The position numbers were made by a program, and so were the translations under genes. A stretch of 64,000 bases of DNA from Brooklawnia cerclae (GTDB taxonomy: Bacteria; Actinomycetota; Actinomycetes; Propionibacteriales; Propionibacteriaceae): positions 62,001 through 126,000 of the forward strand of contig NZ_JAAMOZ010000001.1 of assembly GCF_011758645.1 (NCBI RefSeq), read 5' to 3'. The notes beneath the pieces were generated by a model. The model did no database searches and was not told where the DNA came from. It worked only from the letters and a program-made list of their open reading frames with translations. Of the stretch, positions 9 to 37,114 are shown in pieces (the first letter of the stretch is position 1; every line of letters starts with the position of its first letter).

Positions 9-965
9 CTACGGCGTGCCTTGTGAAGCCTGGTCTTCGGAGGCTCGTGCAGTGGCTGCCGCCTCAGCGAGCAGGATCGCGCGCACCGGATCGGCCGTGT
101 CGTCGGGACGCATCGGCCCGCCTGTTCCGCGGCGGCGCCCCGTTCCCGGGGTTCCGCGCCGGGCGAGCCAGCGGGCGAACCATGACAGCGACAGGTTGAT
201 CGTCAGGTAGATGGCCAGCGTGACGAAGAACAACGAGAACAGGTAGCGGTTGCCGTAGTACGCGCTCAAGTTGTTCATGGTCGTGCGGATGAGCTCGTTG
301 TAGCCCACGATGTAGCCGAGCGAGGTGTCCTTGAGCAGGACGACGAGCTGGGCGACGATGATCGGCAGCATCTGGCGGAAGGCCTGCGGGAACTCCACGA
401 GCATCTTCGACTGGAACGGGCGCATGCCGACGCTCAGGGCGGCTTCGCGTTGTCCGCGTGGCAGGGCGGCCAGGCCGGCGCGCAGCGCCTCACCGATGAG
501 GGTGCCGTTGTAGAGGATCAGCGCGACCACGACGGCGGTGAACTGGCCGGTCGAGCCCACGAGCAGGATGAACAGCATCATCAGCAGCACGGGCATGCCG
601 CGCAGGAACTCGAGCAGCCAGGCAACCGGCTTGCGCACCCAGGCGATCTCGGAGCTGCGCAGGAGCGAGAAGACCACACCGAGCGCCAGCGCGCCGACCG
701 CGGCCACGGCAGCGGCGCGCAGGGTGTTCAGCACGCCCTGGCCGATGAACAGCCACACGTCGGCCTCGGCGAAGATGTCCCATCGGCTCTCGTCGAACAT
801 GCCAGGCAGCGTGATGCCCCCGGATTGGCGCGGGGTGGCCAGGATGGTGACGGCCCACACGAGCACCGCAGCGATGAGGACCAGTCCCACGATCGAGCCG
901 ACACGCGAGATCGCGCGGGCACGTGGTCCGGGGGCGTCGAACAGGACGCTCGAGCCTGCGCTCAT
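9..965 (-). CDS. gluD: Polar amino-acid (glutamate-type) ABC transporter permease GluD
   Basis: Membrane permease subunit of a polar amino-acid importer, most like GluD of the actinobacterial gluABCD glutamate system. The 318-residue protein has a first hydrophobic segment at about residues 22-43 and four or so more. A cytoplasmic coupling loop (EALRAG at 159-164, EAALSVG at 174-180) would contact the ATPase. The last 45 residues are a polar Arg/Ala-rich tail. Its ATG overlaps the gluC stop by four bases, so the two permeases are translationally coupled. It is the last gene of the operon, and only 8 bases of the window lie beyond its stop. Glutamate as substrate is inferred from family and gene order. 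Confidence 0.88.
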   Translation of the reverse strand: MSAGSSVLFDAPGPRARAISRVGSIVGLVLIAAVLVWAVTILATPRQSGGITLPGMFDESRWDIFAEADVWLFIGQGVLNTLRAAAVAAVGALALGVVFSLLRSSEIAWVRKPVAWLLEFLRGMPVLLMMLFILLVGSTGQFTAVVVALILYNGTLIGEALRAGLAALPRGQREAALSVGMRPFQSKMLVEFPQAFRQMLPIIVAQLVVLLKDTSLGYIVGYNELIRTTMNNLSAYYGNRYLFSLFFVTLAIYLTINLSLSWFARWLARRGTPGTGRRRGTGGPMRPDDTADPVRAILLAEAAATARASEDQASQGTP

Positions 966-1615
966 CGCTGCACCACCAGCTTCTTCTCCAGGCGTGCGGC
1001 CAGTAGACCGAGCGGCACGGTGATCACCAGGTAGAAGGCTGCGGCGATGATCAGGATCGGTATCACCAAATCGCCGTGGCCGTTCGCGAGAGTACGCGTC
1101 GAGGCGAACAGATCCACGACGAAGAAACCGCCGGCCACCGAACTGTTCTTCGTCAGCGCGATGAACACATTGATGAGCGGCGGGATGGTCATGCGGAAGG
1201 CCTGCGGCAGGACGACCAGACTGACCGTCTGGCCGAAGCCCAGGCCGATCGACCGTGCCGCTTCAGCCTGCCCGACCGGGACGCCGTTGATGCCCGAGCG
1301 CAAAGCCTCGGCGACGAACGGTGATGTGTAGTACGTCAGGGCGCAGATGGCGAGGATCGTGTAGAAGTTCCAGTCCCAGCGCAGCCCGAAGAACGGGACG
1401 ACAAAAACGAAGAAGTAGAAGACGAGTGTCAGCGGCGTGTTGCGTCCGATCTCGGTCCACACCGTCGCGAAGACGCGTAGCGACCCGATCGGCGAGATGC
1501 GCATCGCGGTGATGATCGTCCCGAACACGAGCGAAGCCGTGCCCGAGATGACCAACAGCAGGAGAGTCATCTTGAAGCCCACCCAGAAGGCGGGCAGTAG
1601 CTCGATCAGATCCAC
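962..1615 (-). CDS. gluC: Polar amino-acid (glutamate-type) ABC transporter permease GluC
   Basis: Second permease of the importer, 217 residues, the usual length for this HisM/GlnP-type family. Hydrophobic segments lie near residues 12-38, 60-78, 84-102, 140-160 and 185-210. The EAA coupling loop (EALRSG, 103-108) is intact. The start is GTG, giving MDLIELL. It follows gluB after a 94-base gap that holds a strong hairpin, and overlaps gluD by four bases. GluC and GluD would form the heterodimeric channel served by GluA and the lipoprotein GluB. Confidence 0.88.
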   Translation of the reverse strand: MDLIELLPAFWVGFKMTLLLLVISGTASLVFGTIITAMRISPIGSLRVFATVWTEIGRNTPLTLVFYFFVFVVPFFGLRWDWNFYTILAICALTYYTSPFVAEALRSGINGVPVGQAEAARSIGLGFGQTVSLVVLPQAFRMTIPPLINVFIALTKNSSVAGGFFVVDLFASTRTLANGHGDLVIPILIIAAAFYLVITVPLGLLAARLEKKLVVQR

Positions 1616-1658
1616 ACGTCACCCTTCCCGAACACACGATTCCCGAACACGCACCCGA

Positions 1659-1692
1659 GGTGCGCCGGACCGATCAGCCGGCCCGGCGCACC
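1659..1692 (-). terminator. Intercistronic hairpin between gluB and gluC
   Basis: Perfect 9-bp inverted repeat: GGTGCGCCG at 1659-1667 and CGGCGCACC at 1684-1692, with a 16-base loop and no T tract. It lies directly after the binding-protein gene and before the permeases. In this position such hairpins often protect or attenuate the message so that binding protein exceeds permease. That role is inferred. Confidence 0.5.
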
Positions 1693-1709
1693 CGGAGGCG
1701 AGAAACCGA

Positions 1710-2579
1710 TCAGATCTCGTAGCGGTCGACCGCCGGCGGCTCGACGTACGGCAGGACGGTGCCCGCGGTGGAGTCCCAGGCCTCCTCGTAGCGGCCGTCC
1801 TCGTAGGCCTCCTCCAGCACGTCGTTGATCCACATGCGGAAGTCGGTGTCGTCATGGGCCAGACCGATACCGTAGGGCTCCTCGGTGAACGGCTCACCGA
1901 CGACCTTGAACTCGCCCTCGTTCTGTGCCGCGAGACCGGCCAGGATGACGTTGTCGGTCGACACCGCGACCACCTGACCACTGCGCAGCGGCTCGAGGCA
2001 GTTCGAGTAGGTGTCGGTCGCGAGCACCTCAGCACCCAGGGCCTCGAGGTTGGCCGCGGGGGTCGAGCCCGTCACCGAGCACACCGGCTGGCCGACGAGG
2101 TCGTCCTCGCTGGTGATGTCGTTGTTGTCGGCGAGCACGAGGATCGACTGACCGGCCATGTAGTACGGCCCGGCGAAGGAGATGACCTCCTTGCGCTTGT
2201 CGTTGATGGTGTAGGTCGCCACCACGATGTCGACCTCGCCGTTCTGGATGAAGGGCTCCCGGTTGGCCGAGACCGTCTCCACCCAGTTGATGTTGTCCTC
2301 CGAGATGCCCAGTTCACTGGCGATGATCTTGCCGATCTCGACGTCGAAGCCTTCGGGAGTGCCCGAAGGTCCCATGAGGCCGAAGAGCGGCTGGTCGAAC
2401 TTCGTCCCGATCGTGATCGAGCCCGCCTCGGACAGCTCTGCCATCGTCGTGCCGGCTTCGAAGGTCGGGGCCTCGCTCGGAGTGGCGTCGTCGCCGCTGT
2501 CGTCGCTGGACGAGCACCCGGCCAGGGCGATTGCGCCGGCAAGGGCCACGGCCATGAGGGACAGTCGCTTAGTCTTCAT
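1710..2579 (-). CDS. gluB: Glutamate-type solute-binding lipoprotein GluB
   Basis: Extracellular solute-binding protein (SBP_bac_3 family, PBPb fold), 289 residues. The N-terminus MKTKR is followed by a hydrophobic stretch and a lipobox LAGC with the modified Cys at 22, so it should be a membrane-anchored lipoprotein. A short Ser/Asp linker leads into the binding domain (SITIGTKFDQPLFG near residue 53, family hallmarks around GFDVEIGKI). It lies between gluA and gluC in the conserved order A-B-C-D. The substrate is probably glutamate or a similar acidic or polar amino acid. Confidence 0.88.
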   Translation of the reverse strand: MKTKRLSLMAVALAGAIALAGCSSSDDSGDDATPSEAPTFEAGTTMAELSEAGSITIGTKFDQPLFGLMGPSGTPEGFDVEIGKIIASELGISEDNINWVETVSANREPFIQNGEVDIVVATYTINDKRKEVISFAGPYYMAGQSILVLADNNDITSEDDLVGQPVCSVTGSTPAANLEALGAEVLATDTYSNCLEPLRSGQVVAVSTDNVILAGLAAQNEGEFKVVGEPFTEEPYGIGLAHDDTDFRMWINDVLEEAYEDGRYEEAWDSTAGTVLPYVEPPAVDRYEI

Positions 2580-2625
2580 GTCTTCATCCTTTGCTGTGTC
2601 GGGCCGCCTAGACGGCCGGTGCCTC

Positions 2626-2641
2626 GACCGTCGAGACGGTC
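2626..2641 (-). other. Short palindrome in the gluA-gluB gap
   Basis: GACCGTC and GACGGTC arms separated by two bases form a perfect 7-bp hairpin in the 69-base gap between gluA and gluB. It could be an mRNA processing or stability element for the highly expressed binding-protein cistron. No T tract follows. Confidence 0.3.
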
Positions 2642-2648
2642 AAGCCTG

Positions 2649-3446
2649 TCAGTGCGTGAGGATCTTCGAGAGGAAGTCCTTGGCACGGTCGGTCCGCGGG
2701 TTGGTGAAGAAGTCCTCGGGCGCGGCCTCTTCGAGAACCTGCCCGTCCGCCATGAACAACACCCTGTCCGCGGCCTTGCGGGCGAAGCCCATCTCATGGG
2801 TGACGACGATCATCGTCATCCCGTCCTGGGCGAGGCCGATCATGACGTCGAGCACCTCGTTGATCATCTCGGGGTCGAGCGCGCTCGTGGGCTCGTCCAT
2901 GAGGATGACCTTGGGGTTCATGGCCAGCGATCTCGCGATGGCCACGCGCTGCTGCTGCCCGCCGGACAGCTGGTTGGGCATCTTCTTCGCCTGGTTCGCC
3001 ACACCGACACGGTCGAGCAGCTCCATCGCTCGCTTGTCCGCTTCGGCCCGCTTCAACCCGCGTACCTTGATCGGCCCGAGCGTGACGTTCTCGAGCACGG
3101 TCTTGTGGGCGAACAGGTTGAACGACTGGAAGACCATGCCGACGTCACTGCGCAGCCGTGCGAGCGCCTTGCCCTCCTCGGGCAGCGGTTTGCCGTCGAT
3201 GGTGATGGTGCCGCTGTCGATCGTCTCCAGGCGATTGACAGCCCGGCACAGCGTCGACTTGCCCGACCCGGACGGGCCGATGACGACCACCACCTCACCC
3301 CGGTTGACCGTGGTGTTGATGTCCTTGAGAACGTGCAGTTCGCCGAAGTGCTTGTTGACATCCTTGATGACGACAAGCGGCTCGCCCCGTCCCACAGAGA
3401 TGCCCGACTCCGTGAGAGCGTCTTGTTCGTCGTCCAGTACTGCCAT
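2649..3446 (-). CDS. gluA: Polar amino-acid ABC transporter ATP-binding protein GluA
   Basis: Cytoplasmic ATPase of the glutamate-type importer. Walker [10 protein letters not shown] is near residue 57, the Q-loop VFQSFN follows, then the ABC signature LSGGQQQR, Walker B with DEPTSALD and the H-loop VVTHE. The ATG at 3446 (MAVLDD) gives 265 residues. An upstream in-frame GTG would add ten residues. A TAGGGT hexamer ends only seven bases before this ATG, so the transcript may be leaderless. It is the first gene of gluABCD. The 200 bp upstream carry an inverted repeat and a four-unit direct repeat that look regulatory. Confidence 0.9.
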
Positions 3447-3480
3447 GGGTTGCACCCTAAACGCCAAGTGGGCCATCTCG
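3447..3480 (-). promoter_or_regulatory. Candidate leaderless promoter of gluABCD
   Basis: Read on the minus strand, TTGGCG, about 19 bases, then TAGGGT, then seven bases to the ATG of gluA. TAnnnT is the usual actinobacterial -10 form. The short distance suggests that transcription starts at or next to the A of the start codon. Confidence 0.4.
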
Positions 3481-3497
3481 CCAATGGGGCACGCACT

Positions 3498-3517
3498 CGG
3501 TTACGCACCTGTAACCG
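3498..3517. promoter_or_regulatory. Inverted repeat upstream of gluA
   Basis: Perfect 7-6-7 inverted repeat, CGGTTAC and GTAACCG arms. It sits just upstream of the candidate gluA promoter, as expected for an operator. The GTAAC half-site resembles the GTnAC half of GlnR-type boxes. The binding protein is not known. Confidence 0.45.
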
Positions 3518-3562
3518 GCATGGCCGATTCCGGGCGGATTAGGGCAGGGACGCCGCGCGGCC

Positions 3563-3602
3563 GGTCACGGGAGGGTCACGAACCGGTCACGAAACGGTCA
3601 CG
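3563..3602. promoter_or_regulatory. Four GGTCACG direct repeats at exact 11-bp spacing
   Basis: GGTCACG begins at 3563, 3574, 3585 and 3596, an exact 11-bp period that puts the units on one face of the helix. OmpR-family regulators such as GlnR (GTnAC-N6 units) and PhoP (PHO boxes) bind direct repeats with this period. It lies about 120 bp upstream of gluA and just downstream of the iron-type binding-protein gene. A nitrogen or phosphate regulator acting on glutamate uptake is plausible but inferred. Confidence 0.55.
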
Positions 3603-3603
3603 G

Positions 3604-3619
3604 CCGGCGCGCGCCGGCG
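3604..3619. terminator. GC-rich palindrome after the iron-type transporter operon
   Basis: A 16-bp self-complementary stretch (GCCGGCGC and its mirror) 25 bases past the stop of the binding-protein gene. It could end the upstream operon on the minus strand. There is no T tract on that strand, so this is weak evidence. Confidence 0.35.
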
Positions 3620-3644
3620 TCCCCTTTTCTGTGGTTGGAAAGGG

Positions 3645-4652
3645 TCAGAACAGGTCGGGATGCAGCCAGGCGGCGATCTGCTCGAGGGCATCGATGCCGC
3701 CGGAACCCGACGACATGGCTGCTGCGCTGACCAGCAGAACCTGGTCGTCCGCCACCGCCGGGACGGCCTGCAGCCCGGGGTTGGACAGGAGCTCGTCGTA
3801 CTGGGACCGCCCCCGACCCGTGCTGTCGAGCAGGACGATACGCTCCGGCGCCGACTCGACGACCTGTTCGACCTCGGCACGCTGGGAGCTTGTCAGACCG
3901 ATGGTCTCGGAGGCCAGCGAGGCTCCGGCTGCCGACAGCACCGCCTGGTTGATCGAGCCGGGCCCGCAGTAGTAGATGCTCCCGGCGATGATCCTCAGCA
4001 TCGCGGTGCTGGGCTGGTCGTCGTCGGGGACGCCGGCCAGCGCATCGGTCACCTTCTGCCAGCGCTCGCCGTAGGCCTGGCTCACCGCAGCCGCCTCGTC
4101 CTCGGCGCCCAGGGCGCGTCCGATCACGGCGACGTTCTGCTGGAAGGTCTCGGGGGAGTCCCAGCCGTTGGTGATCGCGAGCACGGGCACGCCGGCCTGC
4201 TCCATCTGGTCGAAGGCGTCTGTTTCCGCGTCGTGCCGGGTGGTCACCAGCACCAGGTCAGGATCGAAGGCGAGCACCTCCTCGACCTCGGCGTTCGCGC
4301 CGCTGGCGAGGCTGCCCTCGATGGTGGCCGCCGTCTCGTACTGGAGCGACTGGTCGGCGCTGCGGTTGATGTCGGGGACGGCGGCGATCCGCGAGGCGTC
4401 CACCAGTTGCATGGCGACGTCGGCGACATCGGACGACAGGGCGACGATCCGCTGCGGCGCTTCGTCCAGGGTCACCGAACCGCCGTCGAACTCGATGGTC
4501 CTCGGCCAGCTCTCGGCGGACGAGGCCTGCGATGCCGAAGCCTCGTCCGTGGCGGCTGACGAGCCGCTGCAGGCGCCGAGGGCGAGCGCCAGTGGCGCGA
4601 TCAGGAGGCCCGCCAGCAGGCGGGCGGGGTGTGGCTTGCGAGATGGTGTCAT
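3645..4652 (-). CDS. Iron-siderophore/cobalamin-type ABC transporter substrate-binding lipoprotein
   Basis: Periplasmic-binding-type lipoprotein of the FepB/BtuF family (Peripla_BP_2), 335 residues. The signal ends in lipobox LGAC with Cys 28, followed by a Ser/Ala linker. The N-lobe opens with PQRIVALSSDVADVAMQL and FDPDLVLVTTRHDAETDAF, typical of class III binding proteins joined by a long helix. It is the last gene of a three-gene operon (permease, ATPase, binding protein). The substrate could be a ferric siderophore, heme or a corrinoid, and the sequence does not decide between them. Confidence 0.85.
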   Translation of the reverse strand: MTPSRKPHPARLLAGLLIAPLALALGACSGSSAATDEASASQASSAESWPRTIEFDGGSVTLDEAPQRIVALSSDVADVAMQLVDASRIAAVPDINRSADQSLQYETAATIEGSLASGANAEVEEVLAFDPDLVLVTTRHDAETDAFDQMEQAGVPVLAITNGWDSPETFQQNVAVIGRALGAEDEAAAVSQAYGERWQKVTDALAGVPDDDQPSTAMLRIIAGSIYYCGPGSINQAVLSAAGASLASETIGLTSSQRAEVEQVVESAPERIVLLDSTGRGRSQYDELLSNPGLQAVPAVADDQVLLVSAAAMSSGSGGIDALEQIAAWLHPDLF

Positions 4653-7069: not shown

Positions 7070-7798
7070 GTGACTGTGGGGCGTGACGATGTGGTGCAGT
7101 TGCTCCGGCAGGCGATCGCCAGTGGGGCGCATCCTGTCGGCTCCAAGCTGCCGTCCGAGCGGGAGTTGGCCGAGCGTCACGGTGTGTCGCGGTCGGTGGT
7201 GCGTGAAGCCCTGCGCACTCTCTCTGAGCAGGGATTCATCACGATCGAGCCTGCCCGGGGGGCCTTCGTCCGGGAGTCACGTCCGACCGACGCTGCACCG
7301 GTGGTCGGACTCGTGCTCCGCCGCAGCGGTGTGACCGCCCGGGAAGTGATCGTCGCCCGCCGGGTGATCGAGGGCGAGAATGCGGCACTGGCGGCGCTGG
7401 CGCGGACTGCGGACGATCTCGGTCATATGCGTGAGGCCTTGGATGACTTCGCGAACGCCCCGACGCTGCTCGATGAGATTGCGGCCGACCTGGCACTTCA
7501 TACGGCCGTGGCTGCCGCCAGCGGGAATCAGGTACTCGAGGCGATGTTCGGCTCGGTGGCCGGTTTCGCAGCTGAGATCATGCTGCGCAGCCTCGGTGAC
7601 CCGGTTGTCACGGATCTCGCTGTGCCGCAGCACCGTCAAATTGTCGACGCGATCGAGGCGCACGACGCGGACGCGGCTCGTGAACTCATGGTGAGACACA
7701 TCGATGTCGCGCAGCAGCACTACGGGGCCGATCTTGATCGTCCGTTGGAGGCCGTTGCGCGAGGCCGGTTGGCCGACTTCCTGGAACGTCTCGGCTGA
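7070..7798 (+). CDS. FadR-family GntR transcriptional regulator
   Basis: 242-residue repressor-type protein. An N-terminal winged helix-turn-helix (SKLPSERELAERHGVSRSVVREALRTLSEQG, about residues 25-55) is followed by an FCD effector domain (about 85-225) with acidic and His ligand-type positions, including LALHTAVAAASGN. The start is GTG at 7070. GTG at 7076 is also possible. It is followed by a sugar-acid catabolic cluster whose promoter region carries a long palindrome at 7871-7903, the probable binding site. The ligand is probably an intermediate of that pathway. Confidence 0.85.
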   Translation: MTVGRDDVVQLLRQAIASGAHPVGSKLPSERELAERHGVSRSVVREALRTLSEQGFITIEPARGAFVRESRPTDAAPVVGLVLRRSGVTAREVIVARRVIEGENAALAALARTADDLGHMREALDDFANAPTLLDEIAADLALHTAVAAASGNQVLEAMFGSVAGFAAEIMLRSLGDPVVTDLAVPQHRQIVDAIEAHDADAARELMVRHIDVAQQHYGADLDRPLEAVARGRLADFLERLG

Positions 7799-37053: not shown

Positions 37054-37114
37054 GTGCGGCGATCGATTGGAGGGCGTTCACGGTATGAAATGTGAACGTA
37101 ACGGGATGGTTACA

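Follow-up and report, generated by a model that had tools for sequence, protein, structure and literature searches.

Which regulator reads four identical half-sites, spaced at exactly 11 bp, ahead of a glutamate importer? The question is posed by a locus of Brooklawnia cerclae (host genome, 3.79 Mb) within the 64,000-nucleotide stretch of DNA analysed here, hereafter the window. An ABC transporter operon occupies the minus strand from 9 to 3446, and encodes an ATPase, a family 3 solute-binding protein, and two permeases. The ATPase gene gluA (2649..3446) carries an ABC_tran match, and its reading frame can be extended to 3476. It is followed by gluB (1710..2579), whose product has as its closest solved structure 5eyf, titled glutamate ABC binding protein, and by the permease genes gluC (962..1615) and gluD (9..965), assigned from open reading frames together with domain matches. 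Because only one permease domain passed the NCBIfam cut-off among models for the four operon proteins, the name gluABCD is sound but not certain.

Upstream, and in the same direction as gluA, lies a gene for a periplasmic binding protein (Peripla_BP_2, BtuF/FecB-like; 3645..4652, minus strand). In Streptomyces coelicolor, gluABCD is reported in a review to be controlled by GluR-GluK, and the present locus resembles that system in its target operon and in pointing to a regulator of the OmpR family. It is unlike that system in its neighbourhood: none of the first three genes upstream, all within the window, belongs to a two-component system, and the other side of the operon lies beyond the window. 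In S. albus, gluA-D are reported to be up-regulated with glutamate as nitrogen source.

The four-unit array

The initial annotation described four GGTCACG units with an 11-bp period, and the units are found exactly so, starting at 3563, 3574, 3585, and 3596. Read on the gluA strand, the array (3563..3602, minus) is CGTGACC-GTTT-CGTGACC-GGTT-CGTGACC-CTCC-CGTGACC; its centre lies at about -136 relative to the gluA start, a long way from the promoter. All 28 of the 28 core bases are identical across the four units, and the spacers have diverged: the four nucleotides 3' of successive GGTCACG units are GGAG, AACC, AAAC, and GCCG, the last of these following unit 4. Identical cores beside drifted spacers argue for selection on the 7-mer. 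Half-sites of 7 bp in every 11 bp fit operators of the OmpR/PhoB family, which bears out the earlier proposal of an OmpR-type regulator on one face of the helix.

Chance origin is excluded. In 6 Mb of sequence simulated with a third-order Markov model, GTCAC chains reached two units at most (eight cases) and GGTCACG formed no chain; in the host genome, the array is the sole exact four-unit chain. Within the window, it is also the only GTCAC chain with an 11-bp period. The form GTNAC-N6 in four copies, allowing up to two mismatches, occurs at four places genome-wide (reversed control, 0), exactly at the gluA array only; the other three places carry two mismatches each, and one of them lies within 16S rRNA.

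The genome scan proposed at the outset thus gave no second exact four-unit array, and one exact two-unit copy before an uptake gene. The exact pair GGTCACG-N4-GGTCACG is present as three overlapping pairs at the gluA array and in one further copy at C2:33520, in front of a gene for a DctP-type binding protein and 27 bp upstream of a promoter-like TTGACC-N17-TAGGAT. Both loci with exact pairs are intergenic (2/2, by a coding-frame heuristic); among the imperfect pairs that were extracted, none of the six with one mismatch and none of the 20 with two mismatches is intergenic. The genome searches gave 99 and 38 places, of which those extracted as loci were inspected; intergenic positions were called by a heuristic based on G+C content by codon position, independently of annotation.

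The intergenic region as a whole was searched in 198 genomes of the family. Of the 197 genomes other than the host, 58 gave matches, all of them short fragments (about 20-50 nt). The region in its full length is absent from the rest of the family, which makes the array a local elaboration. The same fragments led to rejection of a mobile element or conserved block, and a riboswitch or other known RNA was rejected after Rfam returned no match within 3400-3750 up to an E-value of 1.

The proximal box and the gluA promoter

A second element, also noticed initially and placed correctly as nearer the promoter than the array, is the 7-6-7 inverted repeat CGGTTAC-AGGTGC-GTAACCG (3498..3517, minus). 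Its core, GTTAC-N6-GTAAC (3500-3515), is centred about 61.5 bp before the gluA ATG. The repeat is a candidate GlnR box, and it recurs at this place in gluA promoters of other actinobacteria.

Upstream regions of gluA were collected from 110 loci, of which 109 could be parsed (the exception is L094). A TANNNT hexamer stands within 22 nt of a start in 71 of the 109 promoters, and 12-14 nt before the start in 63; this position points to a leaderless gluA transcript. In the host, the corresponding -10-like hexamer would be TAGGGT (3454..3459, minus), 13 nt before the gluA ATG, with a possible but weak -35 hexamer, TTGGCG (3479..3484, minus), across a 19-nt spacer. A scan for sigma-70 consensus promoters found none upstream of gluA, so the promoter is placed here by conservation.

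A box was then counted where GTnAC-N6-GTnAC matched at 7 or more of its 8 positions and began between 70 and 36 bp ahead of the hexamer. Left out of this count were the 38 of 109 promoters with no TANNNT within 22 nt (mostly from Streptomyces) and one with too little upstream sequence; 34 of the 80 named loci had been viewed by eye beforehand. Among 65 dereplicated promoters, the window excluded, 36 carry the box, as against a mean of 0.57 and a maximum of 3 in shuffles. Four windows of equal width further upstream hold 0-1 boxes each, and the interval from 105 to 70 bp before the hexamer holds a box in 8/65; among those inspected, most come from the family f2. Given the 36 promoters and the shuffled mean, the proximal box is, as judged from conservation, an old and shared operator of gluABCD. 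It is better supported than the array, and is the most solid part of the observation. The conserved promoter, leaderless and carrying its box, suggests that glutamate import came under nitrogen control earlier, and in more lineages, than the few species studied would indicate.

Genomes of f2 (L044, L045, L052, L056, L057, L059) also show a hairpin upstream of gluA that contains GTGAC-N6-GTCAC or a near form. It sits above a conserved GATCGTTACC..GTGG box, even where the upstream gene differs.

Regulators and their motifs

The host genome contains 11 matches to Trans_reg_C. GlnR is encoded (L153), with an atypical receiver; its best PDB hits, 8hih (E 2e-59) and 8hig (E 2e-56), are presumably GlnR complexes, their titles being generic, and the receiver matches 4o1h, titled GlnR (E 3e-13). 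RegX3, the counterpart of PhoP, is encoded as well (PDB 2oqr, E 3e-103), as is MtrA (NF040689, 371 bits against a cut-off of 300). In the alignment with 2gwr, the host MtrA and that of Mycobacterium tuberculosis differ very little over the second half of the DNA-binding domain.

Candidate sites were scored against consensus strings from PMC10704036, PMC6988585, PMC5650626, PMC6265350, and PMC3087709. Two describe MtrA sites (PMC6265350, PMC5650626): in M. tuberculosis, c-G-T/A-n-A-C/T-c twice with a 4-nt spacing; and in S. coelicolor, G/T-T-G/A-A-C-C-N5-G-T-G/T-A-C, that is, KTRACC-N5-GTKAC. The array matches them at 12/12 and 11/11 positions, respectively. Against GlnR strings it scores 8/8 (S. 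venezuelae, also the AfsQ1 form), 7/9 (S. coelicolor), and 8/10 (M. smegmatis), and against the PHO consensus 10/14. The proximal repeat scores 8/9 (gTnAc-n6-GaAAc), 8/8 (GTnAC-n6-GTnAC), and 8/10 (M. smegmatis) for GlnR; 10/12 (M. tuberculosis) and 8/11 (S. coelicolor) for MtrA; and 8/14 for PHO.

Sites at the host's own nitrogen and phosphate genes serve as controls. Boxes at glnA (9/9), amtB (9/9), and gltB (8/9) conform to the S. coelicolor GlnR box, with GAAAC half-sites at glnA and amtB, GTAAC at gltB, and GTGACC at none. The pstS box, GTTCACC-N4-GTTCACC, agrees with the PHO consensus at 14/14. Half-sites of the array type had been expected near nitrogen or phosphate genes, an expectation that failed at all four of glnA, amtB, gltB, and pstS. 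Consensus scores and host controls together set the array apart from both the host PHO box and the host GlnR half-sites: the array has GTGAC where the nitrogen genes have GTAAC, GTTAC, or GAAAC. It shares 11-bp direct repeats and a TCAC core with the Streptomyces PhoP PHO box (GTTCACC, 11-nt repeats), but every unit has G for T at position 2 and G for C at position 7.

By sequence, the closest published match of the array is MtrA: half-site, flanks, and 11-bp period agree fully, and the same 7-mer stands in all four units. The two-unit DctP site likewise scores 12/12 with the MtrA motif. With one mismatch allowed, 5 of 21 MtrA-type sites in the host genome are intergenic, compared with 14% of random positions, and imperfect sites of this type are not clearly enriched between genes. 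The array differs from known MtrA sites in having four half-sites in a row and in its target, a glutamate importer; the literature searched yielded no report of MtrA acting at gluABCD or a glutamate importer. It differs also in its genomic company. MtrA autoregulation and the classical targets were considered and dropped: the 400 bp upstream of host mtrA, read by eye, contain no array-type site, and a scan of the dnaA region found no GTnAC-N6-GTnAC pair at 7/8 or better. Both are MtrA targets elsewhere, and these two results count against MtrA.

GlnR, MtrA, PhoP, and AfsQ1 share a near-identical half-site, which of them reads a given box being a live question in actinobacteria. The initial annotation was right that GTCAC-N6 has the GTnAC-N6 form of GlnR boxes, and GlnR is at hand; chains of this form are a published arrangement for GlnR, AfsQ1, and MtrA alike. 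At amtB and glnA of S. venezuelae, the GlnR layout is GTnAC-n6-GTnAC-n6-GTnAC-n6-GTnAC (PMC3087709), so sequence alone does not separate MtrA from GlnR at the array. MtrA has itself been reported to bind GlnR boxes (PMC9739842, PMC6988585) and to regulate phosphate genes. Taken with the motif scores, the reported binding of MtrA to GlnR boxes and the fourfold GlnR layout suggest that the array belongs to the MtrA type, or serves both MtrA and GlnR.

GTCAC arrays across the family

Exact GTCAC triples occur in 18 of the 198 family genomes; they number 20, while the reversed control has 2. Outside the host, 15 of 17 array loci are intergenic, as against 11.9% of random positions at the same loci, by the heuristic described above (two settings, both giving 15/17). 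One of these loci (L192, G227:C58) carries the family's second four-unit GTCAC-N6 array, at 1501-1538, upstream of a gene for a family 5 (peptide-type) solute-binding protein. The arrays are thus rare and mostly intergenic, and several precede genes for uptake or phosphate release.

Neighbouring genes were scanned for 20 proteins at 16 of the 17 loci, together with the neighbour at the seventeenth (L192). Five of the 17 arrays adjoin PAP2, Exo_endo_phos, GDPD, or PhoH genes, a link noticed post hoc, after annotation; two of these five are the same PhoH locus type within one genus. The PHO consensus is matched by the family arrays at 8 to 12 of its 14 positions. These five neighbours keep RegX3/PhoP alive for the family class, less so for the gluA array. 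A broader proposal is that exact GTCAC-N6 arrays of three to four units form a recurring operator class, bound cooperatively by stacked dimers of a single OmpR-family regulator, which at gluABCD would be layered over an ancient and widely shared GlnR box and merge a second stress signal with nitrogen state. As a general scheme this is rather unlikely.

Three PstC-like loci above the family cut-off were seen in the host genome (L169-L171), one of them inside the window (20071 onward). A binding-protein gene together with a canonical PHO box was seen solely at C1:260763.

Who might read the array

The reading preferred here, with a probability of roughly 0.45, is that the array is a four-half-site operator of the OmpR family, most likely for MtrA and perhaps shared with GlnR, stacked above the conserved GlnR box. 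What is observed directly is the sequence and how rare it is, that the proximal box is conserved and the regulators are encoded, and that published motifs match; from this we infer the binding protein, whether it activates or represses, and what it responds to. A leaderless promoter would drive gluABCD, with two stacked operators for winged-helix regulators of the OmpR/PhoB family. The proximal box (3500-3515, around -61) matches a GlnR box and sits where an activator would be expected, and GlnR bound there would switch on glutamate uptake when nitrogen is limiting. The four same-facing half-sites of the distal array would leave room for two tandem head-to-tail dimers. Most likely a strong site for MtrA, or for MtrA and GlnR in common, the array would add to the nitrogen input a further signal (the state of the envelope, osmotic conditions, or nutrient richness). 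The GlnR control initially proposed for the array is better supported at the 3498-3517 repeat, which is conserved and resembles the glnA, amtB, and gltB boxes, the array itself being closest to MtrA.

Alternatively, the array could be a double GlnR box in an a-b-a-b order (GTnAC-n6 in four copies) with the proximal repeat as a third box, as at amtB. The S. venezuelae amtB and glnA precedent (PMC3087709) and the 8/8 score against that species' box speak for such an arrangement, as do the gene for GlnR itself (L153) and the AC-n9-AC element, described as key to the M. smegmatis GlnR site (PMC3662644) and present in the array. A related target is on record too: glnQ, a glutamate ABC transporter gene, appears in a review among the GlnR targets of S. 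erythraea (PMC10704036). The host, however, writes its glnA and amtB boxes with GAAAC and its gltB box with GTAAC, never with GTGACC, and the array reaches only 7/9 against the S. coelicolor box. Moreover, a C flanks the core on both sides in all four units, invariant and yet superfluous for the 5-bp GlnR core. Three GlnR boxes at one promoter therefore seem somewhat unlikely. Control by phosphate is improbable: PHO boxes are built as 11-nt direct repeats (PMC6988585), a period that the initial annotation saw in the array, and RegX3 is there to bind it and couple glutamate import to phosphate, but 10/14 compares poorly with the 14/14 of the host's own pstS box. The five phosphate-type neighbours in the family favour this coupling, yet they were recognized after the fact beside arrays of modest PHO likeness, and MtrA, too, has phosphate genes among its reported targets.

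An imperfect, G+C-rich inverted repeat encloses the array (3546..3625; arms of roughly 20 bp) about 20 nt past the stop of the upstream gene, so the array could instead be the loop of a hairpin at the end of the upstream operon's transcript, or else a neutral tandem duplication, with no regulator involved in either case. The predicted fold, -46 to -48 kcal/mol, is only about 2 s.d. better than that of shuffles (z about -2); the T-run is on the strand opposite to that of the upstream gene; and Rfam offers no match. Neutral duplication would leave unexplained the fully identical cores beside diverged spacers, and the other exact copy in the host genome is intergenic as well. An origin free of any regulator is thus very improbable. 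Through its shape alone the bracket may terminate transcription of the upstream operon, or it may be meaningless. At 3606-3621 there is a terminator-like hairpin with a T-run, in the plus-strand orientation only; both neighbouring operons are on the minus strand.

With MtrA, or MtrA and GlnR, as the favoured readers, the array is a striking four-half-site form of a known operator type, and the find is real but mostly ordinary. A four-copy array of an invariant 7-mer and a clean GlnR box at one promoter make a natural test piece for separating these regulators.

Other half-site groups

GTnAC-N6-GTnAC pairs occur at two further places in the window: at 37098-37113 (GTAACGGGATGGTTAC), and at 7596-7611 (GTGACCCGGTTGTCAC), the latter inside an open reading frame (7070-7798) that resembles a GntR-type regulator. 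Three dyad-symmetric GTnAC half-sites, GTTACGGCCGCGTAACGATCCCGTTACGCGGCC, precede an apparent GntR-type regulator gene at a separate locus (L168; G000:C1:1490000-1490400).
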